The notes below the pieces were generated by a model. The model made no database searches, was not told the DNA's origin, and saw only the letters and a program-made list of their open reading frames with translations. A program made the position numbers and the translations under genes. Positions 37,253 through 62,340 of a stretch of 64,000 nt of DNA are shown piece after piece. Numbering within the stretch: position 1 is the first letter of the stretch; every line of letters starts with the position of its first letter. The stretch comes from Actinokineospora pegani. GTDB lineage: Bacteria > Actinomycetota > Actinomycetes > Mycobacteriales > Pseudonocardiaceae. The DNA lies in assembly GCF_009745975.1 (NCBI RefSeq), contig NZ_WHOL01000060.1, positions 1 to 64,000 on the forward strand, in the 5' to 3' direction.

Positions 37253-37278
37253 CGGCGCACTCCGCTGTGGCCGACGAC

Positions 37279-43526: not shown

Positions 43527-44969
43527 TCAGGCACTTGCCAGCGGGGCCTCGGCCTCGGGCGCGCGCTCCACGGGAGCGGCGGCCGGGGCCTGCTTGGACA
43601 GGGAGGGAACCAGGAACAGCGAGATGAGCAGCACCAGGGTCGCGATGCCCGCGGAGAACCAGAAGGCGCTCTGCACGCCCGCGACCGTGATCGCGCCCGT
43701 CGCGTCGCCGGTGAGCGTGGCGATGGTGACCGCGACCGCGAGCAGGAGACCGACGCCGAGCTGGCGGTTGGAGTTGTACAGGCCGGAGGCGAGACCCATC
43801 TGCTGGGGCGCGACACCGGTCATGGCGGCGGCGGCGGTGCTGATCATCATTACCGTGATGCCGACGCCGAGGGCGAGCCCGCCCGGGAGCACGTTGGCGG
43901 CGAAGGAGCCGTCGGCCGGGGTGAGCGCGAGCCACAGCGAGCCCGCGATCAGGAAGACCGAGCCGAAGACCAGGACCGGGCGGGCGCCCAGCTTGGCCGT
44001 CGACTTGGCCACCGGCAGCGAGGCGAACACGACCACCAGCGCCTGCGGGAAGAACGCCAGGCCCGTCAGGATGGCCGAGAAGCCCAGCACGTGCTGCAGG
44101 TACAGCGTGATGAAGAACGTCGAGATCGACATCACGCCGCCGGACAGGAACGCCACCAGGTTGCCGCTGGTGACACCGCGGTTGGCGAAGATGGACAGCG
44201 GCACCAGCGGGTTGGCCACCTTCGCCTGCAGGCCGATGAAGGCCGCCAGGAGCACGACGCCGCCGACGAGCGGGACCAGGGTGCCGCCGGCGCCCCAACC
44301 CTGCTCCGAGGCGATCGTCAGCGCGTAGGCGATCGAGCACATGCTCGCGGTCACCAGGATGGCGCCCGGGACGTCGATCCTGGCCTTGCGGGTCTGGGCG
44401 CTGTCGTCGGTCAGCTTCATCGCCGCGGCGACGACCATGTAGATCCCGACCGGGATGTTGACGAACATGACCGCGCGCCAGCCGAAGACCTCGGTGAGGA
44501 CGCCGCCCGCGAGCACGCCGCCCGCGAAGCCGACCGAGGACACGGCGCCGAACACGCCCATCGCCTTGGCGCGCTCGGCGCCCTCCGGGTACCCGGCGCC
44601 GATCATCGCCAGCACGGCGGGGGCGACGGCGGCCGCCGACAGGCCCTGCAGCGCGCGGGAGACGATGAGCAGCAGCGGGGAGTCGGCGAACCCGCCGACC
44701 AGCGAGGCCAGGGTGAACACGGCCAGGCCCCACACGAACATGCGCTTGCGGCCGATGATGTCGCCGACGCGGCCGCCCAGCAGCAGGAAGCCACCGTAGA
44801 ACAGCGCGTAGGCGCCGACCACCCACGGCATGGCGCCGTCGGTGAACGCCAGGTCCGTCTTGATCCACGGCAGGGCCACGTTCACGATCGCGAAATCGAG
44901 CGTGAGGATGAACTGCGCCAGGCACAGCAGCATCAGCGGGGGCCGCTTGGTTGCCACCTGAGTGCTCAT
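43527..44969 (-). CDS. MFS drug exporter (DHA2-like)
   Basis: A 480-residue inner-membrane transporter with about fourteen predicted hydrophobic helices. It has the MFS motif A around GGRVGDIIGRKR and a motif C-like GVLAGGVLTEVFGWR, and ends in a hydrophilic Ala/Pro/Glu-rich tail. Such proteins export antibiotics using the proton gradient, and here it probably provides self-resistance to the aryl product. The ATG at 44969 follows an AGGAGAAAGGA site. Divergent from the CGNR-type regulator gene, the usual arrangement for a regulated exporter. Confidence 0.9.
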   Translation of the reverse strand: MSTQVATKRPPLMLLCLAQFILTLDFAIVNVALPWIKTDLAFTDGAMPWVVGAYALFYGGFLLLGGRVGDIIGRKRMFVWGLAVFTLASLVGGFADSPLLLIVSRALQGLSAAAVAPAVLAMIGAGYPEGAERAKAMGVFGAVSSVGFAGGVLAGGVLTEVFGWRAVMFVNIPVGIYMVVAAAMKLTDDSAQTRKARIDVPGAILVTASMCSIAYALTIASEQGWGAGGTLVPLVGGVVLLAAFIGLQAKVANPLVPLSIFANRGVTSGNLVAFLSGGVMSISTFFITLYLQHVLGFSAILTGLAFFPQALVVVFASLPVAKSTAKLGARPVLVFGSVFLIAGSLWLALTPADGSFAANVLPGGLALGVGITVMMISTAAAAMTGVAPQQMGLASGLYNSNRQLGVGLLLAVAVTIATLTGDATGAITVAGVQSAFWFSAGIATLVLLISLFLVPSLSKQAPAAAPVERAPEAEAPLASA

Positions 44970-45253: not shown

Positions 45254-45817
45254 ATGGGACAACCAGGAGACAGAGCGGCGGCCCCGGGCGGGCTCGCCCT
45301 CGTGCAGTCGTTCGTCAACAGCGTCAACGTCGAGCACGGACCGGACGAGTTCGAGACCACCGACGGGCTCGCGCGGTGGTTGGGCCGCAACGGCTTCACC
45401 GCCGCGGACCTCGGTGAGCCGGACCGCCGGGACGCGGTGGCGCTGCGCGAGGCGCTGCGCTCGCTGCTGCGGGAGAACAACGGCGCCGAGCAGGACACCG
45501 CGGCGCACCGGGTGGTCGAGCACGTCGCCAGGGACTGCCCGCTGGTGCTGCGGGTCGGGGCGGGCGGCATCGCCCTGGGCCCGGCGCACGACGACGTGCG
45601 CGGCGCGCTGGGCGCGGTGCTGGCGAAGGTGGCCGAGGCGGCCACGGACGGTTCGTGGCAGCGGTTGAAGGCGTGCCAGGAACACCGGTGCGAGTGGGCC
45701 TTCTACGACCGCTCCCGCAACCGGGCGAGCCGCTGGTGCTCGATGCAGGTGTGCGGCACGCGGGCGAAGATGCGCGTCTACCGGCAGGGCAAGCGCGAAC
45801 AGGGTGATCAAGGTTGA
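45254..45817 (+). CDS. CGNR-type zinc-finger regulator
   Basis: A 187-residue protein with the ABATE-like N-terminal domain (LALVQSFVNSVN, LARWLGRNGF, LREALRSLLREN) and a C-terminal CGNR zinc finger: KACQEHRCEWAFYDRSRNRASRWCSMQVCGTR. The last motif is CGTR instead of CGNR. Proteins of this family are putative stress- or ligand-responsive DNA-binding regulators. It is divergent from the exporter and has a palindrome of aryl-box half-sites at its start, which makes it the prime candidate to control the three aryl operons. The ATG at 45254 or GTG at 45251 lacks a clear ribosome site, so leaderless translation is possible. Confidence 0.85.
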   Translation: MGQPGDRAAAPGGLALVQSFVNSVNVEHGPDEFETTDGLARWLGRNGFTAADLGEPDRRDAVALREALRSLLRENNGAEQDTAAHRVVEHVARDCPLVLRVGAGGIALGPAHDDVRGALGAVLAKVAEAATDGSWQRLKACQEHRCEWAFYDRSRNRASRWCSMQVCGTRAKMRVYRQGKREQGDQG

Positions 45818-45958: not shown

Positions 45959-47104
45959 TCAGGGCGCGTGCTCGCGGCCGAGCAGCGACCGGGCGACCAC
46001 GAGCTTAGTGGCCGCGGCGGTGCCGTCGGCGAGCTGCATGCCGATGACGTCGCGCAGCCGCTGGGCGATCGGGCCGTCCTCGGTGTAGCCGAGGTGCCCG
46101 AGCACGAGCAGCGCCTGCTGCACGGCCTCGACGGCGGCCTTGGGGGCCCACCACTTGGCCATGTTCGACGGCAGCACCGGGTCCAGGCCCTCGTCCTGCC
46201 TGGTCAGCGCCTCGAGGGCGACCAGCCGGGCGGCGTGCAGGACCGTGGCGTGCTCGACCAGCGAGAACGCCACCGACTGGTACTTGGACAGCGGCTGGCC
46301 GAAGGCGACCCTGCTCTTGGCGTGGGCGATCGCCTCGTCCAGCGCGGCGCGGGCGACCCCCAGCGCCATCAGGGCGATGAGCGCGCGGGAGAACCCGAAG
46401 CCGCGCATCACCTCGATGAACCCGTCGCCGGGCCCGCCGACGACGTCCTCGCGGCCCACGCGCACCCGGTCGAAGACGAGGTCGCCGCGACCACCCGCCC
46501 GGCAGCCCAGGTCGTTGGTGCGCTCGCGGGTGACGCCCGGGTCGTCGAGTCCGATGTAGAACGCGGTGACCCCGCGCGCGCCGGGGCCGCCGGTGCGGGC
46601 GAAGACCAGCCCGTGGGTGGCGTAGGCGGTGGCCATGATCGAGGCCTTGACCCCGGTCAGCACCCAGCCGTCGCCGTCGGGCTCGGCGGTCATGGCGATG
46701 TTGGCCGCGTCGGTGCCGTGGTCGGGCTCGGTCAGCGCGACCGCGACGACGGCCTCGCCGCGGGCGATCGGGGGCAGCCAGCGCCGGAGCTGCTCCGGGG
46801 TGCCGTTGGCGGCGAGCACCCCGGCGACCAGCGCGGCGTTGAGGACGGGGAAGCAGACCGTCAGGTCCGCCGCCGCCAGCTCCTCCAGCGCGATGCCCGC
46901 GCTGACCGCGTCCAGCTCCAGGCCGCCGTGCTCGGCGGGCACGCGCAGGCCGTAGAGGCCCTCGGCGGCGATCTCGGCGATCAGGCCGTCGCGGTAGCTG
47001 CCGCGCACGTCGTTGTCCCGGCGGTGCGGGGCGATGCGGGACGCGGCGAAGTCGGCGGTGCTCTTGGCGAACGCCTTCTGCTCCGCGGTGAACTCGAAGT
47101 CCAT
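45959..47104 (-). CDS. Acyl-CoA dehydrogenase
   Basis: A 381-residue flavoprotein with the three-part acyl-CoA dehydrogenase fold: N-terminal helices, middle VVAVALTEPDHGTDAANI, and C-terminal FGQPLSKYQSVAF and LVLGHLGYTEDGPIAQRLRDV. It would introduce a double bond into an acyl-CoA in the cytoplasm, passing electrons to ETF. Last gene of the minus-strand AmCP operon, 11 bases after the acyl-CoA ligase gene, with which it forms a ligase-dehydrogenase pair like that used on cyclic carboxylates. The ATG at 47104 follows GGAGGG. The actual acyl substrate is unknown. Confidence 0.88.
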   Translation of the reverse strand: MDFEFTAEQKAFAKSTADFAASRIAPHRRDNDVRGSYRDGLIAEIAAEGLYGLRVPAEHGGLELDAVSAGIALEELAAADLTVCFPVLNAALVAGVLAANGTPEQLRRWLPPIARGEAVVAVALTEPDHGTDAANIAMTAEPDGDGWVLTGVKASIMATAYATHGLVFARTGGPGARGVTAFYIGLDDPGVTRERTNDLGCRAGGRGDLVFDRVRVGREDVVGGPGDGFIEVMRGFGFSRALIALMALGVARAALDEAIAHAKSRVAFGQPLSKYQSVAFSLVEHATVLHAARLVALEALTRQDEGLDPVLPSNMAKWWAPKAAVEAVQQALLVLGHLGYTEDGPIAQRLRDVIGMQLADGTAAATKLVVARSLLGREHAP

Positions 47105-47115: not shown

Positions 47116-48753
<1,638 letters not shown>

Positions 48754-48762: not shown

Positions 48763-49719
48763 CTATCCCTTCACGCTCGACGTGGCCCGCTCGACGATGG
48801 CCGCGGCGGTGACGCCCGCGCGGTCGAGCAGGTAGCGCTGGGAGCCGGAGACCGAGACGAACCGGTCCGGCATCCCGAGCCGGTGCACGCGCACCGGCAG
48901 CAGTTCGGTCAGCGCCTCGGCCACCGCGGCGCCGAAGCCACCGGCCCGCCAGTGCTCCTCGACGGTGATGACCGTCCCGGTGATGCCCGCGGCCGCGGCC
49001 AGGGTCGCGGTGTCCAGCGGCTTGACCGTGTGCACGTGCAGGACCGTGGCGTCGATGCCGAGTCCGGACAGCTCCTCGGCCGCCTCCCACGCCGAGAGCA
49101 CCGGGTAGGCGCCGCAGGCGGCGATGGTGACGTCGGTGCCCTGGCGCAGCACCTGGGCCTGGCCGAGGACGACCGGCGGCCCGGCGGGCAGGTCCGGCAC
49201 GGCGTTGCGCCCCAGCCGCAGGTACACCGGGCCGGGCAGCGCGAGCGCCTGGCGCACCAGGGAGTCCGTGCTGGCGGCGTCCGCGGCGACGACCACGGTC
49301 ATGTTGGGCAGCACCCGCATCGCCGCGATGTCCTCGAGCGAGTGGTGGGTGGCGCCCAGGTGGCCCGCCGACACCCCGGAGTGGGTGGCGGCGATCCGCA
49401 CGGGCAGGTCGTTGTAGGCAATGTTGATCTTGACTGCCTCGATGGCGCGCGACGACGCGAACGCCGCCATGGTGTTGGCGAACGGGACCCGGCCCTGCTT
49501 GGCCAGCCCCGCCGCCGCGCCCATCAGGGTGTGCTCGGCGATGCCGATGTTGACGTAGCGGCCCGCCGCGGGGCCGAAGTCGACCCCACCGAACAGGCCG
49601 GTGTCGGTGTCGAGGCAGACCACCCGCTCGTCGCGGGGCATCAGCTCGGTGAGGATGTCCCGGTAGACCTCGCGGGAGGAGGGGGCCTTGGGCGGCGCGG
49701 GGACCGCGGGGGCGCTCAC
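48763..49719 (-). CDS. Transketolase, C-terminal subunit
   Basis: A 318-residue pyrimidine-binding plus C-terminal domain of a split transketolase: RYVNIGIAEHTLMGAAAGLA with the catalytic Glu, FANTMAAFASSRAIEAVK, HSGVSAGHLGATHHSLEDIA. Its GTG start overlaps the stop of the N-terminal subunit gene (GTGA). Together they form a thiamine-diphosphate enzyme. In AmCP pathways such as vazabitide this pair adds a two-carbon ketol unit to the carrier-bound glutamate semialdehyde, which is its most likely role here. About 15 N-terminal residues are Pro/Ala-rich. Confidence 0.88.
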   Translation of the reverse strand: MSAPAVPAPPKAPSSREVYRDILTELMPRDERVVCLDTDTGLFGGVDFGPAAGRYVNIGIAEHTLMGAAAGLAKQGRVPFANTMAAFASSRAIEAVKINIAYNDLPVRIAATHSGVSAGHLGATHHSLEDIAAMRVLPNMTVVVAADAASTDSLVRQALALPGPVYLRLGRNAVPDLPAGPPVVLGQAQVLRQGTDVTIAACGAYPVLSAWEAAEELSGLGIDATVLHVHTVKPLDTATLAAAAGITGTVITVEEHWRAGGFGAAVAEALTELLPVRVHRLGMPDRFVSVSGSQRYLLDRAGVTAAAIVERATSSVKG

Positions 49720-50621
49720 GGGCGACGCGCCTTGCGCAGGGCCTCGAGCGCCAGCCGGTGCTGCCGCCCGCCGAGCTTGGCGTAGTGGCTGCGGGCCTGG
49801 TCCTCCACCATCGGCAGCCCCTTGCCCTTGACGGTCCTGGCGATGACGACGGTGGGGCGCCGGTCCTGCCCCGGCGCGGCGGAGAGGGCGTCGGTGAGCG
49901 CGTCCACGTCGTGGCCGTCGACCTCGAACACCCGCCAGCCGAACGCCCGCCACCGGTCGGCCAGCGGCTCCAGGTCGTTGACCTCGGCCGTGGCGCCGGT
50001 GATCTGCAGGCCGTTGCGGTCGACGACCGCGACCAGCCCGTCGAGCCGGTGCGCCGCGGCGACCGAGGCCGCCTCCCACACCGAGCCCTCCTGCAACTCC
50101 CCGTCGCCCATGACGACGAAGGTCCTGCGGTCGGTGTCGTCGAGCCGGTTGGCCAGCGCGAAGCCGATGCCCAGCGCCAAGCCGTGGCCGAGCGACCCGG
50201 TCGGCATCTCCACCCCGGGCACCTCCGTGTTGGGGTGCGCCATGAGCGGGCTGCCGTGCTCGCCGTACTCGGCCAGCCGCTCGACCGGGAAGTACCCGGC
50301 CTCGGCCAGCGTGGCGTAGAGCCCGATCCCGCCGTGGCCCTTGCTCAGCAGCAGGACGTCGCGGTCGGGCCAGGCCGGGAAGCCCGGGTCGACCAGCATC
50401 ACCCGGAAGTAGAGGACGGACAGGATCTCCACCAGCGACATCGAGCCGCCGACGTGGCCGCCCTCGCGACCGGCGCACATGGTGACGACGTGCTCGCGGA
50501 TCCGTGCGGTGACCTCGGTGAGGTCGGTTCGGTCGGTCTGCCGGTGCTCGGCCCCTGTGGCCGGGGCGGCTGCGGGCGCGGTCGGCGCCTGGCCGCCGCG
50601 CACCGCGAACGTGCTGCTCAT
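49716..50621 (-). CDS. Transketolase, N-terminal subunit
   Basis: A 301-residue thiamine-diphosphate-binding subunit: REGGHVGGSMSLVEIL, LLSKGHGGIGLYA, GSLGHGLALGIG, MGDGELQEGSVWEAA with the metal-binding GDG, and VDRNGLQITG. The N-terminus has about 30 extra residues rich in Ala, Pro and Thr, apparently disordered, before the first conserved helix. It is encoded between LysY and the C-terminal subunit. The two-carbon acceptor is inferred to be the AmCP-bound semialdehyde. The unusual tail could be a targeting or linker element. Confidence 0.88.
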   Translation of the reverse strand: MSSTFAVRGGQAPTAPAAAPATGAEHRQTDRTDLTEVTARIREHVVTMCAGREGGHVGGSMSLVEILSVLYFRVMLVDPGFPAWPDRDVLLLSKGHGGIGLYATLAEAGYFPVERLAEYGEHGSPLMAHPNTEVPGVEMPTGSLGHGLALGIGFALANRLDDTDRRTFVVMGDGELQEGSVWEAASVAAAHRLDGLVAVVDRNGLQITGATAEVNDLEPLADRWRAFGWRVFEVDGHDVDALTDALSAAPGQDRRPTVVIARTVKGKGLPMVEDQARSHYAKLGGRQHRLALEALRKARRP

Positions 50622-50646: not shown

Positions 50647-51672
50647 TCAGTTGGGGTGCAGGCCGGTGAACTCCAGCCCAGCGCGCTCGGGCAGCCCGTG
50701 GCGCACGTTCATGCACTGGACCGCGTTGCCCGCCCCGCCCTTGACCAGGTTGTCCAGCGCCGCGATGACCGTGATGTGGCCGGACCCCGCCTCCAGGGCG
50801 AACCCGACGTCGCAGAAGTTCGAGCCGGACAGGATCTTGGCGTCGGGGAAGCGGTGCAGGCCCCGGCGCTCGGCGACCACGCGGACGAACGGCTCGTCGG
50901 CGTAGGCGGCGCGGTAGGTCTTGCGGACCGCCCGCTCGTCCACCCCGGGGGCCAGCCGGGTGCGGCAGACGAGCTGCACGCCGCGCACCGCCTCGACGCC
51001 GGTGGCCGACATCCGGATCGGCAGGCCGGTGGCCTGGGCGATCTCCGCCTCGTGCCGGTGGCGGACCGGGGCGAACACGCGCATCGCGCCGCTGCGCTCG
51101 GAGTGGGTGTTCTCCACCCCGGCCCTGGCCCCCGACCCGCTGGAGCCGGTGCGCGCGTCGACGGTGACGTCCCCGGCGAGCAGGCCCGCCTTGGCCAGCG
51201 GGGTCAGCCCGAGGATGCCCGCGGTGGCCATGCAGCCGGGGACGCTGATCCGGTCCGCGGTGCGCAGCTCCTCGCGGTGCAGCTCCGGCAGCCCCGTGGT
51301 GAAGCTGTCGAGCAGCTCCGGCGCGCTGTGCCGGACCCCGTAGTAGGCCTGGTAGGCCTCCGGGCAGCCGAGCCGGAAGTCGCCGGACAGGTCGATGACC
51401 GTCTTCGCCAGCCCGAGGAAGTCGGGCATCCTGGTCATGGTCTCCTTGTGCGGGGTCGCCAGGAACACCACGTCGTACTGGTCGAGCGCGTCCTCGTCGG
51501 AGAAGGCGAGCCTGGTGCGCCCGCGCAGGTTCGGGTGCACCCCGTCGACCTGGCGGCCCTGCAGGCTGCGCGAGGTCGCCGCGGCGACCTCCACGTCCGG
51601 GTGCGTGGTGAGCACCCGCAGCAGCTCGCCGCCGATGTACCCGGCGGCCCCGACCACGGCGACCCTGATCAT
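50647..51672 (-). CDS. lysY: LysY-type AmCP-glutamyl phosphate reductase
   Basis: A 341-residue ArgC/LysY-family reductase: NADP motif VGAAGYIGGELLRVL, catalytic Cys in SVPGCMAT near residue 148, and a late His in HITVIAALDNLVKGGAGNAVQ. It reduces the carrier-bound acyl phosphate to the semialdehyde. The neighbours LysX (4-base ATGA overlap) and LysW show it works on an amino-group carrier protein rather than on free N-acetyl glutamyl phosphate. Primary arginine synthesis is unlikely given the transketolase and sulfur genes around it. Confidence 0.9.
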   Translation of the reverse strand: MIRVAVVGAAGYIGGELLRVLTTHPDVEVAAATSRSLQGRQVDGVHPNLRGRTRLAFSDEDALDQYDVVFLATPHKETMTRMPDFLGLAKTVIDLSGDFRLGCPEAYQAYYGVRHSAPELLDSFTTGLPELHREELRTADRISVPGCMATAGILGLTPLAKAGLLAGDVTVDARTGSSGSGARAGVENTHSERSGAMRVFAPVRHRHEAEIAQATGLPIRMSATGVEAVRGVQLVCRTRLAPGVDERAVRKTYRAAYADEPFVRVVAERRGLHRFPDAKILSGSNFCDVGFALEAGSGHITVIAALDNLVKGGAGNAVQCMNVRHGLPERAGLEFTGLHPN

Positions 51673-52535
51673 CGGACGCCCCTCGCCGCGGCCAGGTCCA
51701 CGATCCGCTCCGCGACGTCCACACCGGAGTGCGCGCCCTGGAAGCCCCTGAACTCCACCCTGTCGTTGACCTCGAGCACGGTGAGCCCTCCTTCGGTGTC
51801 CTCGATGAGGTCGACCCCGGCGATGTCGGCGCCGACCGCCGCCGCGGCCCGCGCGGCCAGGTCGGTGATCTCGTCGGTCAGCGCGCACACCTGGCTGACC
51901 GCGCCGCGCGCGACGTTGGTGCGCCACTGGTCGCCGCGGCGGCGGGTGGCCCCGATCGGCTCCCCGCCGACCACGACGACCCGGATGTCGTTGTCGGCCT
52001 TGGGCACGAGCGCCTGCAGGTAGACCACGTGCGACTGCGGGGAGGGCAGCGCCTCGATGTGCTCGAGGACCGCCGCGGCCATCGCCCGGTCGGTGACCTG
52101 GGTGACGAGCCTGCCCCAGGACCCGACGAGCGGCTTGACCACGGCGGGGTAGCCCAGCTCGTCGAGCGCCTTGAGCGCGGCGTCCGGGGTCAGCGCCAGC
52201 GAGGTCGCCGGTGTCGGCAGCCCGGCGCGCAGCAGCGCCGCCGAGGTGAGCCACTTGTCGCCGCTGACGTGGGTGGCCGCGGCGGAGTTGAGCACGACCA
52301 CCCCGACCGATTCCAGCGCGCTCGCGGCGTAGCGGGCGCGGAAATGGCCGACCTCGCGGTTGATGACGAGCCCAGGACCGGTCCAGGAATTCCCGCCCGC
52401 GATGTGCAGCGTGCGCGGGTCGAGGTGCTCGAAAGCGATGCCCCTGCGGTCGAGAGCGGCCATGATGGACTTTTCCTCGAACCGCACTCGAGAGGCCAGG
52501 ATACCGAGTGCGGCGGCGTCGGAGTTCATCGTCAT
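51669..52535 (-). CDS. lysX: LysX-type ATP-grasp ligase (glutamate or aminoadipate to AmCP)
   Basis: A 288-residue ATP-grasp enzyme of the LysX/RimK group: LGYPAVVKPLVGSWGRLV, YLQALVPKADNDIRVVVVGG, and the metal-binding VLEVNDRVEFRGFQG. It joins the amino group of an alpha-amino acid to the C-terminal Glu of LysW by an isopeptide-type bond, protecting and carrying it through later steps. Glutamate is the expected substrate if the product is a DADH-type amino acid. The ATG at 52535 follows AAGGGAAG, 37 bases after LysW. Confidence 0.92.
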   Translation of the reverse strand: MTMNSDAAALGILASRVRFEEKSIMAALDRRGIAFEHLDPRTLHIAGGNSWTGPGLVINREVGHFRARYAASALESVGVVVLNSAAATHVSGDKWLTSAALLRAGLPTPATSLALTPDAALKALDELGYPAVVKPLVGSWGRLVTQVTDRAMAAAVLEHIEALPSPQSHVVYLQALVPKADNDIRVVVVGGEPIGATRRRGDQWRTNVARGAVSQVCALTDEITDLAARAAAAVGADIAGVDLIEDTEGGLTVLEVNDRVEFRGFQGAHSGVDVAERIVDLAAARGVR

Positions 52536-52572
52536 GCTTCCCTTTTGTGGCTCGTCGTTGTGGCGGACCCCG

Positions 52573-52755: not shown

Positions 52756-53007
52756 GACTTCGCCCCTCGTTGTCGCTGTGCGTGACGGTATGGGATCAAT
52801 TTAGGCCCCGAACGTGAAAATATCCAATAAAGTCCCCTTCTCAATGCACACCGAGTGGGTTATGTGCTGGCCGTATAACCGGGTTCCGAGAACAACATAA
52901 GCAGGGCTTTTCGCACGGACGGTAAATCAGCGGCCGGTGAACCCTATGCTCGGTGCGAAGCGATTTCCCATTCCCAGCACCTCCCCGGTTTCGAGCAAGG
53001 AGCGCAG
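52756..53007. promoter_or_regulatory. Divergent promoter region between LysW and shell-protein operons
   Basis: A 252-base AT-richer spacer, no gene seen. GGTTAT (52858-52863) and ATAACC (52875-52880) form an inverted repeat with 11-base spacer near its middle, a candidate operator for both operons. An AAGGAG site precedes the shell-protein ATG. No GTTACC-N17 box is present, so the AmCP module is not obviously under the aryl regulator. Confidence 0.45.
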
Positions 53008-53865
53008 ATGACAGGGACTCTCCTCCCCGCGGACGTGGCCCAGACCCCCGGCGAGGCGTTCGCCGCCGCCGCGGCCGCCGCGGGCCCCGGCGACCTGGTG
53101 GTGCCGTTCAGCACGCACCTGCCCGCGGCGTTCCCGCTGTTCGCCTCGCGGCCCCGCTACCCCGTCCGCCACCTGCTCAAGACCGCGGCGACACCGGACG
53201 GCCCGGCCACGTTCGTGCACGAGCCGCCGGTGGGCGCGCTCGCCGCCGCGGGCACCAGCTACGCCGCCACCCCGGAGGCCGCGTTCGCGCCGGTGCTGCA
53301 GCGGACCCCGCTGACCGACCTGGTCGCGCGCGTCCCCGCGCCCGCGGGCATCCTCGACCACCCCGAGCTGCTGCCGCAGTACGTGGACTTCCGCGTGCTG
53401 GTCCGGCTCTCGGTGGTGGAGAACCAGTCGCTGCTGACCGGCACCGCCGACGGCGCGATCAAAGGCCTGCTCAACCTGCCCGGCACGCGCGACATCGCCT
53501 CCCCGCACGGCCTGGCCGCCGCGGTGACCGAGACCGCGGCCGAGGTCGAGGAGACCGGCGGGTCCTGCGACGGCGTCGTCGCGCACCCGTTCACCTACTG
53601 GGAGATGGTGCGCACCGGCCTGCTGGAGCGGCTGCGGGGCGCGGGCGTCACCGTCTCGCGCACCAGGATGATCCCGCGCGACACCCTGCTGCTCGGCGAC
53701 TTCCGGGCCGCCTTCACGCTGCTGCTGCCCGACGTCGCGCACATCGCGCTGCGCCGGGGCGCGGGCGCCGACGGCGGGGACGTGTTCGAGGCGTCGAGCC
53801 GGATCGGGCTCGCGGTGCACCTGCCGCAGCACCTGATCGCGCTGACCTGGCAGTCGGGCGAGTAG
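53008..53865 (+). CDS. HK97-fold encapsulin-like shell protein (natural-product encapsulin type)
   Basis: A 285-residue protein with the layout of HK97-type capsid/encapsulin proteins. A short N-terminal arm (1-45) and an extended-loop region (about 48-90, with FVHEPP) come first. The P-domain spine helix follows: YVDFRVLVRLSVVENQSLLTG (126-145), then TADGAIKGLLNLPG. The A-domain has DGVVAHPFTYWEMVRTG (188-204) and MIPRDTLLLGDFRAAFTLLL (221-240), and the final P-domain strand is FEASSRIGLAVHLPQH (260-275). No other phage gene is near. It leads an operon with sulfotransferase, SDR and LysZ-LysK, next to LysW. This fits the encapsulins described inside actinomycete biosynthetic clusters (family 3). 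It should self-assemble into a cytoplasmic protein cage enclosing pathway enzymes; the cargo is unknown. Confidence 0.8.
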   Translation: MTGTLLPADVAQTPGEAFAAAAAAAGPGDLVVPFSTHLPAAFPLFASRPRYPVRHLLKTAATPDGPATFVHEPPVGALAAAGTSYAATPEAAFAPVLQRTPLTDLVARVPAPAGILDHPELLPQYVDFRVLVRLSVVENQSLLTGTADGAIKGLLNLPGTRDIASPHGLAAAVTETAAEVEETGGSCDGVVAHPFTYWEMVRTGLLERLRGAGVTVSRTRMIPRDTLLLGDFRAAFTLLLPDVAHIALRRGAGADGGDVFEASSRIGLAVHLPQHLIALTWQSGE

Positions 53866-53869
53866 TCCG

Positions 53870-54790
53870 GTGTCGCGGCCGAGGGTCCTCTACATCACGG
53901 GCTGGATGCGCAGCGGCAGCACGCTGCTGGGCAACGTCCTCAACGAGCTTCCCGGCGTGCTGCACGTCGGCGAGCTGCACTACCTGTGGCGCAACGGGGT
54001 GCTCAAGCAGGGCACCAACACCACCTGCGGGTGCGGTCGCGACATCACCGCGTGCGCGCTGTGGTCGGCGGTGCTCGACGACGACGGATCGTCGGCCCTG
54101 GCGGCGGCGCGCCGGATGATGGGCCAGCAGCGGCGGCACCTGCGCACCCGGCACACCGCCGCCCGCCTGCGCGACTGGCAGGACGGCGGCGGGCCCCCGC
54201 CCGGCGTCGCCGAGGCGACCGGCCGCACCGCCGCGGTCTACCACCTGCTGGCCGCGGGCGGCGCCGACCGGCTCGTCGTCGACGGGTCGAAGTACCCGGC
54301 CGAGGCGGCGGCGCTGCTCGGTCGGTCCGATGTGGACGTCCGGGTGCTGCACGTGGTGCGCGACCCGAGGCCGACGGCGTTGTCCTACAAGCGCGCCAAG
54401 GACTACATCGACCCGATGGGACCGGCCCGCAGCAGCGCCTACTGGACGGCGTTCAACGCCGCCTCCGAGCTGCTGGGCCGGGCCGCGCCGGAGCGCTACC
54501 TGCGCGTCCGGCACGAGGACCTGTGCGCGGACCCGCGCTCGGTGATCGCCGCCGTCATGGCCTTCGCGGGCCTCGACGGCGACAACCCGGTCGACGACCG
54601 GGGCCGGGTCGCGCTCGGCGTCAACCACACCGTCACCGGGAACCCCGACCGGCTCAGCACCGGCGTGACCGCCATCCGGTCCGACGAGCGGTGGCGGACG
54701 GCGCTGTCGCGGCGGGAGATCACCGCCGCGACAGCGACCGCCGCCCCGCTGCTGACCCGCTACGGCTACCCCCTGCTGCCCGCCGGTTAG
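53870..54790 (+). CDS. PAPS-dependent sulfotransferase
   Basis: A 306-residue sulfotransferase with the 5-prime phosphosulfate loop in VLYITGWMRSGSTLLGNVL at the N-terminus and the 3-prime phosphate loop VVRDPRPTALSYKRAKDY near residue 160. A Cys cluster TTCGCGRDITAC lies near residue 48. It transfers sulfate from PAPS to a hydroxyl; in the aziridine logic this makes the leaving group next to the amine. GTG start 4 bases after the shell-protein stop, so co-translation is expected. PAPS is supplied by the CysD/CysNC genes downstream. The acceptor is inferred, not shown. Confidence 0.87.
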   Translation: MSRPRVLYITGWMRSGSTLLGNVLNELPGVLHVGELHYLWRNGVLKQGTNTTCGCGRDITACALWSAVLDDDGSSALAAARRMMGQQRRHLRTRHTAARLRDWQDGGGPPPGVAEATGRTAAVYHLLAAGGADRLVVDGSKYPAEAAALLGRSDVDVRVLHVVRDPRPTALSYKRAKDYIDPMGPARSSAYWTAFNAASELLGRAAPERYLRVRHEDLCADPRSVIAAVMAFAGLDGDNPVDDRGRVALGVNHTVTGNPDRLSTGVTAIRSDERWRTALSRREITAATATAAPLLTRYGYPLLPAG

Positions 54791-54817
54791 GCCGTCGCGA
54801 AGGAGCTGGAGAACACC

Positions 54818-55588
54818 ATGGACCTGGGCATCAAGGACCGCGTCGCCGCGGTCGCGGCCTCCAGCAGCGGCCTGGGCCTGGCCGTGGCCAAGGCGCTGGC
54901 CAGGGAGGGCGCGCACGTGTCCCTCTGCGGGCGCGACCCGGCCCGGCTGGCCAGGGCGCACGCCGAGGTCAACGCCGAGGGCCCCGGCGAGGTGCTCAGC
55001 CACCCCGTCGACATCGGCGACGAGGCCGCGGCCGCGGCGTGGGTGCGCCACACCGCCGACACCTTCGGCGGGCTCGACGTCGTGGTGACCAACACCGGCG
55101 GCGTCCCGTTCGGGCCGGTGGACAGCTTCGGCGTCGCCGACGTGCGCGAGGCCGTCGAGCAGAACCTGCTCCCGCACGTGGCCATCACCCTGGCCGCGCT
55201 GCCGATCCTGCGGGCCCGCGGCTGGGGCCGGGTGCTGATGATCGCCTCCGAGGCGGTCCGGCAGCCGCACCCCGAGTCGGGCCTGTCGTCGGTGGCGCGG
55301 CTCGGGGTGCTCGGCCACATGAAGGGGCTGGTGCACGCGTTCGGCGCGAGCGGGGTCACGGTCAACGTGCTCGCGCCGGGCTTCCACCGCACACCGATCC
55401 TCGACGAGCAGTTCGGCGCGGAGGTGGACGCGGAGCTGGCGAAGGTGGCCGGTCGCATCCCGCTGGGGCGCATCGGCGACGTCGACCACTTCGGCGCGCT
55501 GGCCGCCTTCCTCGCCAGTGAACAGGCCGACTACGTCACCGGAACGGTCCTCGTGGCCGACGGCGGCAACACCCGGGGATTCGCCTGA
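54818..55588 (+). CDS. Short-chain dehydrogenase/reductase with altered catalytic Tyr
   Basis: A 256-residue SDR with cofactor motif ASSSGLGLAVAKALAREG and NTGG, and the catalytic Ser region MIASEAVRQ. At the YxxxK position the sequence is LSSVARLGVLGHMK: the Lys is kept but Tyr is replaced in an S-S-x-x-R pattern, seen in a subgroup of 3-oxoacyl-reductase-like SDRs. It may reduce or oxidise the ketol or hydroxyl formed after two-carbon extension. Operon-linked to the shell protein, sulfotransferase and LysZ-LysK, all within 35-base gaps. The ATG at 54818 follows AAGGAG. Confidence 0.83.
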   Translation: MDLGIKDRVAAVAASSSGLGLAVAKALAREGAHVSLCGRDPARLARAHAEVNAEGPGEVLSHPVDIGDEAAAAAWVRHTADTFGGLDVVVTNTGGVPFGPVDSFGVADVREAVEQNLLPHVAITLAALPILRARGWGRVLMIASEAVRQPHPESGLSSVARLGVLGHMKGLVHAFGASGVTVNVLAPGFHRTPILDEQFGAEVDAELAKVAGRIPLGRIGDVDHFGALAAFLASEQADYVTGTVLVADGGNTRGFA

Positions 55589-55620
55589 CCCGTCAGGCCC
55601 CGCCGAACCAGGAGGGAACG

Positions 55621-57525
55621 ATGTCCGCACTCGGACACGTCGCCAGCGCGCGCAGCGCCGCGCTGTACGTGGTCAAGATCGGCAGCGCCTCGCTGCACCA
55701 CGAGAACGTCTTCGACGAGCTGGCCCAGATCCGGCAGCGCGGCGCCAGGGTGCTGCTGGTGGCGGGGGGCGCGGCGGGCATCGTCGAGCACTACGCCGCC
55801 CTGGGCAGGGACATCCGCTTCCTGCGCCTGCGCAACGGCGACGACGTGCGCTACTGCCCGCCGGAGGAGATGGCGCACATCGTCGGCGCCTACGAGCGGG
55901 TCACCCTCCCGAGGGTGCGCCGGGCGCTGGCCACCAGGGGGCTGACCGTGCACGCCGCGGTCGCCGACGACGACGCCGTGGTGGCCGGGACGGCGAACCC
56001 GCCGATCCGGGCCGTGCGCGACGGGAAGGTCACCATCATCCGCGACCACCGGGCGGGCACGGTGTCCGGTGTGGACACCGACCGGCTGCTGGCGCTGCTG
56101 GAGGCCTTCGACGTGGTGTGCCTGTCGCCGCCGGTGGCCGACGCCGCGGGCGGCTCGCCGCTCAACGTCGACGCCGACGTGCTGGCCGCGGAGCTGGCCA
56201 ACGCGCTCGACGCCGACCACCTGCGGCTGGTGACCGGCACCCCCGGGCTGCTGGCCGACCCGGCCGACCCGACCTCGCGGGTGGCCGACGTGCTGCCGGG
56301 CGAGGGCGGGCGCCACGCCAAGGGCCGGATGCGGCAGAAGGTGCGCGCCGCCGAGATCGCGCTGACCGGCGCGGCGGACGTCGCCATCACCGGTCCGCAC
56401 GTGCTCACCCCCGCCTCCGGCACCCGGTTCTGGCGGGCCACCCCGCCCGCGGCGGACCTGTCGCTGCTGACCAGGGCCGTGGAGATCTCCTCGGTCTCGG
56501 CCGACGAGCGCGAGCTGGCCGACTACCTCGTCGACTGGTGCACCGAGCACGGCGTCGACGCGCGCGTCGACGCCGCGGGCAACCTCGTGGCCGTGCGCGG
56601 CAGCGGCCCGCAGCGGCTGCTCATGCTGGGGCACATCGACACCGTGCCGCACCGCTGGCCCGCCCGGTGGGCGGACGGGGTGCTGCACGGCCGGGGCTGC
56701 GTGGACGCCAAGGGCTCGCTGGTGGCGTTCCTGGAGACCCTGGCCGAGACCAGCGTCCCGCCCTGGGCGCAGATCCGGGTCGTCGGCGCGGTCGAGGAGG
56801 AGATGACGGCCGCGGGCGCGTTCCACGTCCGCGACCACTACCCCGCCGACGCGGTGGTCATCGGCGAGCCCAGTGGTTCCGGCGCGCTGACCATCAGCTA
56901 CAACGGCCTGCTCAAGGTCCGCCTGTCGATCGCCACGCCCGTGGGCCACACCGCGGGCAACGGCGTCTCCACGGCGGCCGACCAGCTCGTCGACGTGATC
57001 ACCCGGCTGCGCGCCGAGATCGCCGCGTTCTCCCCGGAGGCGATGGTCGCGGTGCTGGGCGTCGACGCCAGGAACGCGGGCGACTTCCAGCGCGGCGAGG
57101 CCGTGTTCGACGTCCGGGTCCCGCGCGCCACCGACGTGCACGACCTGGCCACCCTGGTCACCGGGGCGGCGGCCCCGGCCGAGGCGACGGTCCTGCGCGC
57201 GACCCCCGGCCTGGCCACGGCCCGCACCAGCGCGCTGGTGAAGGCCTTCTCCCGCGCCTTCGGCGACAACGGGGTCGCCCCGCGCTTCCTGGCGAAGAAG
57301 GGCAGCAGCGACATGAACACCCTCGCCACCACCTGGCGGGACGTGCCGATGGTCGCCTACGGCCCCGGGGACGCCGCGCTGGACCACACCCCCGAGGAGC
57401 ACATCGCCGCCGAGGAGTTCCGCCTCGCGCGCCGGGTGCTGGGGCGGGCGGTGCGGAACTGGCTCGACCAGGCGGGCAGGGTCGCCACGACCACCGAGGC
57501 CCGTGGCGAGGGCACAGCCCAGTGA
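55621..57525 (+). CDS. LysZ-LysK fusion: AmCP-glutamate kinase plus AmCP hydrolase
   Basis: A 634-residue fusion. Residues 10-270 are an amino-acid-kinase domain of the LysZ type (LYVVKIGSAS, VLLVAGGAAGIVEHY, DADHLRLVTGTPGLL, GRMRQKVRAAEIAL), which would phosphorylate the carrier-bound side-chain carboxylate. Residues about 280-615 are an M20 peptidase of the LysK type with metal and catalytic residues in LGHIDTVPH, GRGCVDAKGSL, GAVEEEMTA, GEPSG, KKGSSDMNT and the late HTPEEH. It would release the finished amino acid from LysW. One polypeptide thus holds an early and the final carrier step. The last 20 residues form a polar tail, and a strong terminator follows. Confidence 0.9.
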   Translation: MSALGHVASARSAALYVVKIGSASLHHENVFDELAQIRQRGARVLLVAGGAAGIVEHYAALGRDIRFLRLRNGDDVRYCPPEEMAHIVGAYERVTLPRVRRALATRGLTVHAAVADDDAVVAGTANPPIRAVRDGKVTIIRDHRAGTVSGVDTDRLLALLEAFDVVCLSPPVADAAGGSPLNVDADVLAAELANALDADHLRLVTGTPGLLADPADPTSRVADVLPGEGGRHAKGRMRQKVRAAEIALTGAADVAITGPHVLTPASGTRFWRATPPAADLSLLTRAVEISSVSADERELADYLVDWCTEHGVDARVDAAGNLVAVRGSGPQRLLMLGHIDTVPHRWPARWADGVLHGRGCVDAKGSLVAFLETLAETSVPPWAQIRVVGAVEEEMTAAGAFHVRDHYPADAVVIGEPSGSGALTISYNGLLKVRLSIATPVGHTAGNGVSTAADQLVDVITRLRAEIAAFSPEAMVAVLGVDARNAGDFQRGEAVFDVRVPRATDVHDLATLVTGAAAPAEATVLRATPGLATARTSALVKAFSRAFGDNGVAPRFLAKKGSSDMNTLATTWRDVPMVAYGPGDAALDHTPEEHIAAEEFRLARRVLGRAVRNWLDQAGRVATTTEARGEGTAQ

Positions 57526-57536
57526 GCGACACGCGG

Positions 57537-57569
57537 AAGGGCCCCGGCGCACTCAGCGCCGGGGCCCTT
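57537..57569 (+). terminator. Terminator of the shell-protein operon
   Basis: AAGGGCCCCGGCGC (57537-57550) pairs perfectly with GCGCCGGGGCCCTT (57556-57569), five-base ACTCA loop, 12 bases after the LysZ-LysK stop. Confidence 0.9.
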
Positions 57570-57804: not shown

Positions 57805-58677
57805 TCACTCGGCGAACGGGTACCCGTGCAGCGCGTTCTGCAGGGCCCGCTTGGCGATCCGGACGAACCCGGGCGAGGCCGCGCCCGCCGACACCGCCAT
57901 GGTCACCGGCAGCGGCCCGGGCGGGGGCGGCAGGTCGCGCCTGGTGCGCTCGAGGCCCCACAGCTCGTCGCCGTTGGACACCAGGCAGGCCACCCCGAGC
58001 CCGGCCTTGGTCGCCGCGCGCAGCCCGATCAGCTCGGCGCCCTCGTACCCCACCCGCCACGGCACGTCCGAGGCGTTGAAGGTGTCCACGATCCGCCCGC
58101 GCAGCGTGCACGGCTCGGTGAACAGGGTCAGCGGCAGCGCCGCCCCCTCGCCGTGCACCGGCTGGCCGAACCAGTCCATCTTGACCCGGCCGAGCTCGTA
58201 GGTCGCGCCCGCGGAGTGCTGGGGCCGGGGCTGCAGCAGCAGCACCAGGTCCAGCCGCCCGGCGGCCACGTGCGACTCCAGCGACTCGCTCATCCCGGTG
58301 CGGACGCTGATCTGGGCGTGCGGCATGGCCTTGGCCAGCAGGGCCAGGATCTGCGGCAGCGCCTCGGCGAGCTGGTCGCCCACCCCCAGCGCCAGCCGGA
58401 TCTTGCCCTGGGGCGGCACGAACCGCTCCACGGCCTCGTCGTTGAGCGCGACGATGCGCCTGGCGTAGCCGAGCAGCTCCTCGCCCTGTGTGCTCAGCCG
58501 CAGGTCGCGACCGGTCGACAGGAAGATGGGGCCCTTGACCAGCGTGCCGAGCTGGCGGATCTGCTGGCTGACCGCGGGCTGGGTGATGTGCAGCGCCTCG
58601 GCCGCCCGGCGGAAACCGCCGAGGTCGACGACGGTGACCAGTGCTCGTAATCGGTTGATCTGCAGGTCGTGGTACAT
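57805..58677 (-). CDS. LysR-family transcriptional regulator
   Basis: A 290-residue LysR-type protein. The N-terminal helix-turn-helix has LRALVTVVDLGGFRRAAEALHITQPAVSQQIRQL, and a co-inducer domain follows from about residue 88 (KIRLALGVGDQLAEALPQIL). LysR proteins often respond to a pathway metabolite and sulfur-assimilation genes are frequent targets, so it may control the upstream cysDNQ genes or the divergent AmCP operons. The ATG at 58677 has an ideal AGGAGG site. It lies 46 bases downstream of CysQ on the same strand and may be co-transcribed with the sulfate genes. Confidence 0.9.
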   Translation of the reverse strand: MYHDLQINRLRALVTVVDLGGFRRAAEALHITQPAVSQQIRQLGTLVKGPIFLSTGRDLRLSTQGEELLGYARRIVALNDEAVERFVPPQGKIRLALGVGDQLAEALPQILALLAKAMPHAQISVRTGMSESLESHVAAGRLDLVLLLQPRPQHSAGATYELGRVKMDWFGQPVHGEGAALPLTLFTEPCTLRGRIVDTFNASDVPWRVGYEGAELIGLRAATKAGLGVACLVSNGDELWGLERTRRDLPPPPGPLPVTMAVSAGAASPGFVRIAKRALQNALHGYPFAE

Positions 58678-58723
58678 CGTGCACCTCCTGTGCACCGCTC
58701 CCGCCCGGGCTCCCGGGCGGGTC

Positions 58724-59455
58724 TCACCGCTCCCGGATGGCCGCCAGCAGCGGTCCCGCCACCTCCTGGCGGCAGATGAGCAGGTCGGGCAGGTACGGGT
58801 GGGGCCGGTTGTAGTCCAGCGGCGAGCCGTCGACCCGGGAGGCGTGCAGGCCCGCGGCGAGCGCGACGCCGACCGGCGCGGCCGAGTCCCACTCCCACTG
58901 CCCGCCCGCGTGCAGGTAGGCCAGCGCCTCTCCGCGCAGCACCGCCATCGCCTTGGCCCCGGCCGAGCCCATCGGCGCGGTCCGGGCGTCGACGGCCGCG
59001 GCGACCCCGGCGGCGAACGCGGGCGGCCTGCTGTCGCTGACCAGCACCAGCCGGGGCACCGCCCAGCCCGGCATCGGCACCGGCTCGTCGGCCGAGCAGT
59101 GCACCAGGTCGAGCGCGGGCTGGGCGACCGCGGCCGCGGTGACGCCCTGGCCGCGCCGCCACAGCGCCACGTGCACGGCCCAGTCGTCGCGGTCGGGCAG
59201 CGCGTACTCCCTGGTGCCGTCGAGCGGGTCGATGATCCAGACCCGGTCGGCGCCGAGCCTGGCCGGGTCGTCGACGGCCTCCTCCGACAGCACCGCGTCG
59301 CCCGGCCGCCACGCGGCCAACTCCGCCAGCAGCATGGCGTTGGACTCGGTGTCGCCCCGGTCGCCGAGGTCGGGCCCGCCCCCGTCGCGCAGCTTGAGCA
59401 GCAGCCGACCGGCCTCCTCGGCCAGCCGCGCGGCCAGCCTCGCGTCGCCGTTCAC
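58724..59455 (-). CDS. cysQ: CysQ-type 3'(2'),5'-bisphosphate nucleotidase
   Basis: A 243-residue inositol-monophosphatase-fold enzyme: metal-binding [22 protein letters not shown] near residue 84, and [16 protein letters not shown] near 195. It hydrolyses PAP, the inhibitory by-product of PAPS-dependent sulfation, to AMP. The GTG start overlaps the CysNC stop (GTGA), so it is made together with the PAPS-forming enzymes. The presence of CysQ without PAPS reductase or sulfite reductase genes points to sulfation rather than cysteine synthesis. Confidence 0.88.
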
Positions 59456-61275
59456 CGGTCGAGGAAGGCGAGCACGGTCGCGGCGAGCGCGGCCGGGTCG
59501 CCGTCGGTCGGGCGCAGCACCAGCTCCGCGCGCTCGGGGGCCTCGTACGGGTCGTCGACCCCGGTGAAGCCGCGGATCTCGCCCGCCGCCGCCTTGGCGT
59601 AGAGGCCCTTGGGGTCGCGGGCCTGGCAGTCGGCGATCGGGGTGTCGACGAACACCTCGACGAACGGCAGCCCCTCGGCCTCGTGCGCGGCCCGGACGGC
59701 GGCGCGGTCGGCGGCGTACGGGCTGATCAGCGACACGATCGCGACCGTGCCCGCGTCGGCGAGCAGCCGGGCCACCGCACCGGTGCGGCGCACGTTCTCG
59801 GTCCGGTCGGCCGCGCCGAAGCCCAGGTCGGAGTTGAGGCCGTGGCGCAGGTTGTCCCCGTCGAGCAGGTAGGCCGGGCGGCCCGCGGCGACCAGCCGCC
59901 GCTCCAGCTCGACCGCGATGGTCGACTTGCCCGAGCCGGACAGCCCGGTCAGCCAGATCGTGCGCCCCCGGGTGGCCCGCTGGTCGCGGGTGACCGCCGA
60001 GCCGTGCCAGACCACGTGCGAGGCGGCCACCCGCGGCCCGAGGACCATCCCGGCTGCCACGGTGTTGTTGGTCGCCTCGTCGACCAGGATGAAGCTGCCG
60101 GTGCCGCGGTTGCGCTTGTACGGGTCGAACAGCAGCGGGGTCCGCGTGTGCAGCCGGACGCGGCCGATCTCGTTGAGCGCCAGGCCCGCCGCGGACTCGT
60201 CGCGGTGCAGGGTGTTGATGTCGAGCCGGTAGTCCAGCTCGCGCACCGACCCGGTGACCGCCTGCGAGGTGTGCTTGACGGTGTAGCGCGCCCCGGGGCG
60301 CAGCTCGGACTGCTCGGTGAGCCAGCAGACCATCGCGTCGAGGTCCTGCCCGACGTGCGGGCGGTTGTTCGGGCGGCAGATCAGGTCGCCCCGGCTGATG
60401 TCGATGTGGTCGGCCAGCTCCATGGTCACCGCCTGGGGCGCGAACGCCTCGGCCACCTCGCGGCCGCCCGGGCCCCAGATGCGCTCGACGGTGGAGCTGA
60501 AGCCCGAGGGCAGCACGGTCACCTCGTCGCCCGGCCGGAACACCCCGCCCGCGACGGTGCCCGCGTAGCCGCGGAAGTCCTGGTGCGGGCGGATCACGTA
60601 CTGCACCGGGAACCGCGCGTCGATGAGGTTCTGGTCGGAGGCGACGTGCACCTCCTCCAGGTGGTGCAGCAGCGAGCTGCCCTCGTACCAGGGCATCTCC
60701 GCGCTGCGGTTGACCACGTTGTCGCCCAGCAGCGCCGAGACCGGGATGAACGACAGGTCGGGCACGTCGAGCTTGATCGAGAACCGGCGGAACTCCTCGC
60801 GGATCTCCTCGAAGCGCTCCCTGGACCAGCCGACCAGGTCCATCTTGTTCACGCACACCACCAGGTGCGGGATGCCCAGCAGGCTGGCGATGAACGCGTG
60901 GCGCCGCGACTGCTCCAGCACGCCCTTGCGGGCGTCGACCAGGACCAGCGCCAGGTCCGCCGTCGACGCGCCGGTCACCATGTTGCGGGTGTACTGCAGG
61001 TGCCCGGGGGTGTCGGCGATGACGAACTTGCGCTTGGGGGTGGCGAAGTAGCGGTAGGCCACGTCGATGGTGATGCCCTGCTCCCGCTCGGCGCGCAGGC
61101 CGTCGGTGAGCAGCGACAGGTCCGGGGTGTCGGCGCCGCGCTCGCGGCTGGTCCGCTCCACCGCGGCCAACTGGTCGGTGAAGATCGTCTTGGAGTCGTA
61201 GAGCAGGCGCCCGATCAGCGTCGACTTCCCGTCGTCGACGCTGCCCGCGGTGGCGATCCGGAGTAGCGGTCCCAT
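59452..61275 (-). CDS. cysNC: CysNC: sulfate adenylyltransferase subunit 1 fused to APS kinase
   Basis: A 607-residue bifunctional protein. Residues 1-420 are the elongation-factor-like GTPase CysN ([30 protein letters not shown]). Residues 430-607 are APS kinase CysC ([47 protein letters not shown]). With CysD it makes APS and then PAPS, the sulfate donor for the sulfotransferase in the neighbouring operon. The ATG overlaps the CysD stop (TGATG). CysNC fusions are well known; here it forms part of a dedicated cluster set. Confidence 0.93.
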
Positions 61276-62186
61276 CAGAAGTACCCCTCCTTCTTGCGGT
61301 CTTCCATGCCTGCCTCGGAGATCCGGTCGTCGGCCCTGGTGGCGCCGCGCTCGGTGACGCGGGTGGCGGCGACCTCGTCGACCACCTGCGCGGGGGTCGC
61401 GGCGTCGGACTCGACGCAGCCGGTCCCGGTGGCGTCGCCGACGGTGCGGAAGCGGACCAGCGCCTCGACGGGCTCCTCGCCGTCGAGCAGCGTGATGAAG
61501 CGGGTGTGCGCCAGCAGCATCCCGTCGCGGTGCACCACGGGCCTGCGGTGGGCGTAGTAGATCGGCGGCAGCGGGATGCCCTCGTCGCGGACGTACTGCC
61601 AGATGTCGAGCTCGGTCCAGTTGCTCAGCGGGAACACCCGGATGTGCTCGCCCTTGCGGTGCCTGCCGTTGTAGAGGTTCCACAGCTCGGGCCGCTGGTT
61701 GCGCGGGTCCCACTGGCCGTAGGCGTCGCGGAAGGAGAACACCCGCTCCTTGGCCCGCGCCTTCTCCTCGTCGCGCCTGCCGCCGCCGAAGACCGCGGTG
61801 AAGGCGTTCTCGGTGATGCCGCGCAGCAGGGCCGTGGTCTGCAGCCGGTTGCGGCTGGCGCGCGGCCCGGTCTCCTCCACCACCCGGCCCGCGTCGATGT
61901 CGTCCTGGACGCTGCTGACCACCAACCGGACGCCCAGCCGCTCGACGGTCTCGTCCCGGAAGGCGATGACCTCGTCGAAGTTGTGCCCGGTGTCGACGTG
62001 CATCACCGGGAACGGCAGCGGCGCGGGCCAGAACGCCTTGGCCGCCAGGTGCAGCATCACCACCGAGTCCTTGCCGCCGGAGAACAGCAGCACCGGCTTC
62101 TCGAAGGTCGCGGCGACCTCCCGGAAGATGTGCACCGCCTCGGCTTCCAGCGCGCTCAGGTGCGAGAGCTCGTACGTGGTAGACAC
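61275..62186 (-). CDS. cysD: CysD: sulfate adenylyltransferase subunit 2
   Basis: A 303-residue ATP sulfurylase subunit of the PP-loop type: [63 protein letters not shown], and the C-terminal RKKEGYF typical of CysD. It forms APS from ATP and sulfate with CysN. First gene of the cysD-cysNC-cysQ operon. The GTG at 62186 was chosen because it leads directly into [19 protein letters not shown], the family N-terminus, with a GAGGGG site upstream. Confidence 0.93.
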
Positions 62187-62340
62187 TTCGCGGACCCACC
62201 CCTCCGACACAGATTCCGAAAGATGAAGACTGACACCCCGATGACGATTCCTGATGCAATTCCGCTTGAACGCTGATCGGCCGGTGAAAACACATGCCGA
62301 AAGCGGTGAGGGATTCAGGGAGCCATTCGGGAGGAAAACA

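Follow-up and report, generated by a model that had tools for sequence, protein, structure and literature searches.

A Family 3 encapsulin shell gene in an amino-group carrier protein cluster of Actinokineospora pegani, and the sulfotransferase clade linked to it

Introduction

The closest described relatives of the locus considered here are the Family 3, or "natural product", encapsulins, of which Andreas and Giessen listed 132 in 2021, distributed over six classes of gene cluster (PMC8346489). The parts of that paper drawn on here name conserved pairs of a sulfotransferase (ST) and an SDR-family oxidoreductase as well as LysW-like amino-group carrier proteins (AmCPs), and raise the possibility of a nanoreactor that holds reactive intermediates. 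In the same parts, a single Family 3 cluster is reported to have been studied by experiment, the chloromyxamide cluster of Myxococcus sp. MCy10608, associated with peptides of 6-chloromethyl-5-methoxypipecolic acid, and the role of its shell is stated as unknown; what Family 3 encapsulins enclose, and why, is left open there. In the open PMC literature after 2021 we found no Family 3 structure and no demonstrated sulfotransferase cargo, and the assembly of any Family 3 member is not shown in the open literature that was covered.

Related chemistry is known from the azinomycin and vazabitide pathways, in which, according to the portions of the papers used here, an aminotransferase first gives DADH, and AziU3/U2 then close the aziridine by eliminating sulfate from O7-sulfo-DADH (PMC9570651; PMC12559475; PMC11168924).

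The DNA analysed in this work, hereafter the window, is a stretch of 64,000 nucleotides from Actinokineospora pegani (contig NZ_WHOL01000060.1, positions 1 to 64,000). A first-pass annotation of its sequence had proposed that an encapsulin-like shell protein lies in an AmCP cluster and forms a new kind of biosynthetic organelle, dedicated to AmCP chemistry and to an aziridine-type amino acid. Such an organelle would not be a new idea, since the parts of PMC8346489 cited above, from 2021, already place LysW-like AmCPs in Family 3 clusters and put forward a nanoreactor. What the present comparison adds is the suggestion, drawn from gene content, that the shell tracks sulfation and not carrier-protein chemistry.

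The shell protein

By profile score and predicted structure, the shell gene product is indeed a shell protein of the Family 3 encapsulins. It scores 327.1 bits against the Family 3 profile (NCBIfam NF041188, encap_f3), for which the cut-off is 180, and its model shows a complete HK97 fold in which 245 of the 268 residues of HK97 prohead I are aligned. Both the HK97 fold and the Family 3 membership put forward in the first-pass annotation are thereby confirmed at the level of profile and model. The closest folds are the HK97 and D3 proheads, with 19% identity over the aligned part, and a sequence search of the PDB returned weak matches only, mostly to phage capsids. Membership in Family 1 was considered and rejected: the protein reaches 13.1 bits with the Pfam profile Linocin_M18, below the cut-off of 24.3, and a search of the genome with this profile gave no match. 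Residues such as E138, N139, C187, D188 and P273-Q274-H275 are invariant in 41 aligned shell sequences, with C187, Q274 and H275 varying in a wider set (n=13). Most likely, the protein self-assembles into a small cage.

The gene cluster around the shell

The genes surrounding the shell gene are collected in Table 1. Their Pfam and TIGR domains bear out the proposed placement of the shell gene in an AmCP cluster together with a sulfotransferase and an SDR.

Table 1. Shell gene and surrounding genes in the window
Feature	Positions	Strand	Basis or remark
Family 3 encapsulin shell protein (HK97 fold), 285 aa	53008..53865	+	
Sulfotransferase (ST), 4 bases after the shell gene	53870..54790	+	Sulfotransfer_3 49.4 bits; shell-linked clade and clade signature
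SDR-family oxidoreductase	54818..55588	+	adh_short_C2 146.9 bits
Fused LysZ-type kinase and LysK-type hydrolase	55621..57525	+	AA_kinase, Peptidase_M20; TIGR01902 over cut-off
LysR regulator	57805..58695	-	HTH_1, LysR_substrate
CysQ-like phosphatase (putative PAP removal)	58724..59455	-	Inositol_P 92.9 bits
CysN-CysC fusion (putative sulfate activation to PAPS)	59452..61275	-	GTP_EFTU 148.9 bits, APS_kinase 219.5 bits
CysD-type sulfate adenylyltransferase subunit (probable)	61275..62210	-	PAPS_reduct 153 bits; named from domain and place beside CysN
LysW amino-group carrier protein, 60 aa	52573..52755	-	Zn_ribbon_LysW 52 bits; TIGR01206 53.6 bits, cut-off 53.2
LysX-type ATP-grasp ligase	51669..52529	-	RimK, LysX_preATP_grasp; TIGR00768 over cut-off
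LysY/ArgC-type semialdehyde-forming reductase	50647..51672	-	TIGR01850 348.6 bits, cut-off 233.6
Transketolase, N-terminal half	49716..50621	-	Transketolase_N 166.5 bits
Transketolase, C-terminal half	48763..49719	-	Transket_pyr, Transketolase_C
AMP-forming acyl ligase	47116..48753	-	AMP-binding 271.4 bits
Acyl-CoA-dehydrogenase-like enzyme	45959..47104	-	acyl-CoA dehydrogenase N, middle and C domains
CGNR zinc-finger regulator	45302..45817	+	zf-CGNR, ABATE; labelled in 19/53 loci
MFS exporter	43527..44969	-	MFS_1 178.7 bits
FAD-binding oxidoreductase			left end of the listed surroundings, after the MFS exporter

Judged by domains, with some equivalog models not reached, all the functions of the AmCP pathway are encoded, namely the LysW carrier, which is the single match of its kind in the whole genome, and LysX, LysY, LysZ and LysK. 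The models for [LysW]-lysine hydrolase and [LysW]-aminoadipate kinase score below their cut-offs with the LysZ-LysK fusion, and the LysX-type ligase, whose start was set by reading frame at 52529, upstream of the 52487 given by the gene caller, obtains 259.2 bits with LysX_arch, just under the required 275.6.

A promoter scan of 52400-58800 gave a single weak site of the sigma-70 type, located upstream of LysW on the minus strand, where 0.1 was expected. No RNA family reached its Rfam gathering score, no tRNA was found in the window, and a search for plasmid copies gave no match. Adjoining the AmCP cluster, a minus-strand gene set at 27843-41789 resembles one for a chorismate-derived aromatic starter: it comprises a DAHP synthase, two chorismate-binding enzymes (one with a glutaminase domain), an isochorismatase, an SDR, two adenylating enzymes, carrier domains and two KASIII-like proteins. 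Elsewhere in the window are a YcaO-domain protein of 756 aa (18542-20812, plus strand), far from the shell cluster, and a minus-strand group at 893-7675, in which an ATPase of 1048 aa with domains of the HerA/AAA type is accompanied by a protein of 217 aa that matches no Pfam family and by two neighbouring proteins that have MutS domain V.

Companions of the shell across genomes

A collection of genomes from 84,980 species was scanned with the window-type shell, which gave 53 loci (the first set), and their neighbours were labelled with the proteins of the window as queries (phmmer, >30 bits). A second set of 20 loci came from the order of the window and included divergent shell classes. In the first set, 51 loci have an ST and at least 46 an SDR; the acyl ligase is labelled in 44, the dehydrogenase in 34, CysNC in 31, LysX in 26 and LysY in 25. 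The SDR count is a lower bound, as the gene caller was crude, set some starts short, and missed at least the shell-adjoining SDR in two cases (G279 and G240). In the second set, 16 of the 20 loci carry the same ST family, and two others (L085 and L088) have a Sulfotransfer_5 protein instead, encoded by a gene whose last four bases lie within the shell gene, so the reaction, sulfation, appears to be kept there. The remaining exceptions have the look of decayed clusters: L099 has its ST in two broken pieces, L098 retains the SDR, without an ST and with an IS1595-type transposase beside the SDR, and L068, from the first set, has a shortened SDR and no ST. The first-set locus L074 starts at a contig edge 350 bases before the shell gene, so that its left side is unseen.

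The AmCP genes behave differently, being present in 30 and absent in 38 of the 68 scorable loci, where one locus that entered from two collections (L064 and L086) is counted twice, both in the 68 and in the 30. Six of 74 loci were left out of this scoring, five at contig ends (L055, L074, L078, L084 and L100) and L046, which has LysZ-LysK and whose stretch is without LysX and LysY. On a quick tree of the shell, the AmCP pattern takes at least four changes, three of them forced by well-supported branches. Given an ST in nearly every locus and AmCP genes in 30 of 68, gene content suggests that what stays constant beside the shell is the sulfotransferase (or the sulfation reaction) rather than the amino-group carrier. 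The claim that the shell is dedicated to AmCP chemistry is not supported by this comparison. As to the make-up of individual clusters, the LysZ-LysK fusion is labelled in 25 of the 53 loci, with L064 having two separate genes, and a DegT/DnrJ-type aminotransferase occurs in the AmCP-free clusters L062, L069, L072, L076, L092 and L096 (Pfam, all six of six hand-picked proteins).

The ST gene follows the shell gene directly, on the same strand, in 38 of the 53 first-set loci, and in 21 of these 38 the two genes, as called, overlap; this adjacency and overlap are what would be expected of a shell and its cargo. In at least ten Actinomadura-type loci the ST lies several kb from the shell gene and on the opposite strand. 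The distribution of the shell itself is uneven. Of 397 genomes sampled from the order, 23 exceed the cut-off, and no shell match came from the seven further members of the genus of the window that are among the 397.

A shell-linked sulfotransferase clade

When the 397 genomes were searched with the ST of the window, each of the 20 best matches (≥214 bits) had a shell gene less than 3 kb away, and the match ranked after them, at 177 bits, came from a genome without one; no shell gene was found in any of the stretches around unlinked STs (20 + 43). In a maximum-likelihood tree, one branch separates 68 shell-linked STs from 23 unlinked ones, with support of 99/98 and in 200 of 200 bootstrap trees, the 23 having been hand-picked from down the list of 69 unlinked matches. 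A larger tree, made by a quick method without bootstrap, contains the same branch (SH-aLRT 98) between 68 shell-linked STs and 68 of the 69 unlinked ones, the stretch of L145 having given no called ST. Both trees leave out the six of 74 shell loci that lack an over-threshold ST (L068, L074, L085, L088, L098 and L099), and the unlinked STs were gathered by similarity to the ST of the window within one order, so that the split might not hold once further unlinked relatives are added.

The two groups also differ in their alignment. Eight columns after residue 177 of the window ST are filled in 63-68 of the 68 unlinked sequences and in none of the 68 shell-linked ones; 67 of the 68 shell-linked sequences have residues 46-48, which all 68 unlinked ones lack. 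Taken together, trees and alignment suggest that the shell-linked STs are a clade of their own with a loop signature, which is new here. The motif RYGYP near the C-terminus (37/68 shell-linked, 0/23 unlinked) is a variant of R[YF].Y, found in 18 of the 23 unlinked STs, and is not claimed as part of this signature. By its best matches, the SDR is nearly as shell-specific as the ST, with 22 of the 24 best in the 397 genomes shell-linked and the other two interleaved.

Search for a targeting peptide

No conserved targeting peptide was found among the listed ends of the labelled neighbour proteins in the 53 loci, and the ST of the window ends a few residues past its conserved core. The sole striking C-terminal motif is WPGE, which after a linker ends four Streptomyces STs (4 of the 51 first-set STs), from species that form one clade in the ST tree. 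It was rejected as a cargo signal because at the DNA level it shares bases with the ribosome-binding site of the gene that follows, with GGTGA(G/A) immediately ahead of the overlapping SDR start, which explains the motif at least in part; two sisters without WPGE keep GGTGAG.

A proposed pathway and the place of the shell in it

From the families encoded, LysX would load glutamate onto LysW, and LysZ together with LysY would convert it into a LysW-tethered semialdehyde, to which the split transketolase would add two carbons to give a C7 keto-polyol, the presumed substrate of the SDR. CysD and CysNC would supply PAPS, with CysQ removing PAP, and the ST would sulfate a hydroxyl, either as the final sulfate ester or as a good leaving group for ring closure. 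LysK would release the product. The shell may serve to keep an electrophilic product, or the turnover of PAPS and PAP, out of the cytoplasm, and AmCP chemistry would be one of several routes that supply a module of shell plus sulfotransferase. A LysW of 60 residues is unlikely to pass the normal encapsulin pore, so an enclosed step would probably act on the released small molecule.

The reading that we favour, at roughly even confidence, is that the shell forms a small cage which holds or docks the ST encoded directly after it; for the ST lying inside the cage as such, we see about an even chance, and the SDR is a possible second guest. The larger ST tree and the signature make the clade firmer and leave these chances unchanged, as they have no bearing on enclosure, and co-inheritance of ST and shell does not prove it.

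A broader and more tentative view, which we would not yet bet on, is that Family 3 encapsulins are in general "sulfosomes", cages that house a dedicated ST across unrelated natural-product pathways, in which a reactive sulfate ester is made and used away from the rest of the cell. The ester would then depart as a ring closes, an aziridine forms or a halide takes its place; AmCP, NRPS or other chemistry could equally well lie upstream, and even one ST family could give way to another as long as sulfation stays.

Alternative readings

A shell gene that is only a phage capsid gene or prophage relic, caught in the cluster by chance, seems extremely improbable. Although the closest folds are those of the HK97 and D3 proheads, the protein exceeds the encap_f3 cut-off, is conserved to the same degree as its cluster and is accompanied by an ST in 51 of 53 loci, which come from 12 named genera and one uncultured bin; without a match in phage records or in PHROG, this origin was rejected. 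Adjacent phage structural genes had been named beforehand as one of the findings that would speak against an encapsulin, and among the genes called in the window no phage structural or packaging gene adjoins the shell (Pfam, PHROG, phage records). Just past CysD, at 62366-62890 on the minus strand, a gene without a Pfam family matches PHROG 908, of unknown function (E 2.7e-12). Harder to dismiss, though still unlikely in our estimate, is that the HK97-fold protein no longer forms a closed cage; its role would then be that of an open scaffold, of a protein for product binding or self-protection, or of a chaperone for the ST. No Family 3 structure had been solved as of the 2021 paper, to judge by the parts used here (PMC8346489). 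The weak PDB sequence matches, the failure to find a targeting peptide and the invariant residues of the 41 aligned shells, which exceed the apparent need of a passive wall, all lean this way, against which stands the completeness of the modelled fold. It is also rather unlikely that the shell is a mere operon neighbour of the ST and acts at another point of the pathway, for instance around the SDR or around the acyl ligase with the dehydrogenase. The SDR is linked nearly as tightly as the ST, the other two enzymes are frequent companions, and in L062, L066 and L067 it is the SDR that directly follows the shell, with the ST several kb off; the counterexamples are L085 and L088, where another ST family stands beside the shell and no SDR is labelled in either.

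We consider it improbable that the cage encloses the AmCP-tethered steps and is where an alkylating amino acid of the aziridine type is made or held. The genes for LysW, LysX, LysY, LysZ and LysK and the transketolase pair are present, and a route to an aziridine through sulfate elimination is known from azinomycin and vazabitide; the majority of scorable shell loci, however, lack AmCP genes, and LysW is probably too large for the pores. No aminotransferase family for the C6 amine turned up in a Pfam search of the called genes of the window; an aminotransferase may lie elsewhere in the genome, and DegT-type ones do occur in AmCP-free shell clusters, as noted for the six hand-picked proteins. 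Nor was a candidate aziridine synthase recognised among the genes of the window; within 39641-62890, only 43111-43347 (78 aa) and 62366-62890, whose protein has no PDB relative, are without a Pfam family. The C7-backbone genes (LysW, LysX, LysZ, LysY and transketolase) and sulfate activation fit the class of compound named in the first-pass proposal, but the proposal of an aziridine-type amino acid is not supported. In view of the missing aminotransferase family, the alpha-amine of glutamate is the likelier nucleophile, with a pipecolate or similar ring as the likelier outcome, and an enzyme encoded elsewhere could supply the amine.

If the favoured reading of a cage around sulfation is right, it would describe a protein organelle for sulfate-ester chemistry and provide a handle for genome mining, since the shell together with this ST clade would mark clusters that make electrophilic or sulfated amino acids. 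The comparison narrows the cargo candidates to one step, sulfation, and the question of cargo becomes open to test through an ST clade that is recognisable by its loop signature.

Comparison with known systems

From the phage capsids HK97 gp5 and the D3 prohead, the shell of the window differs in sequence, at the low identity given above, and in being without phage neighbours or phage sequence matches; from Family 1 encapsulins such as EncA of Myxococcus xanthus, it differs in falling below the Linocin_M18 cut-off. The azinomycin and vazabitide azabicycle pathways, in the portions of PMC9570651 used here, share with the window the glutamate kinase, the semialdehyde reductase, the split transketolase and the logic of sulfation, whereas the window has no aminotransferase family and no recognised aziridine synthase, and carries a shell gene. 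The likeness to the chloromyxamide cluster is drawn from its published description: its 6-chloromethyl-5-methoxypipecolate has a C7 skeleton, presumably glutamate plus two carbons, which would fit the route proposed here. With the Family 3 encapsulins, as far as the parts of PMC8346489 drawn on and the profile NF041188 describe them, the window shares the profile match, the HK97 fold and a natural-product cluster with sulfotransferase, SDR and LysW-type AmCP, and nothing was found that sets its shell apart from them. The shell thus belongs to a known family, and the advance made here is the dedicated sulfotransferase clade linked to it.
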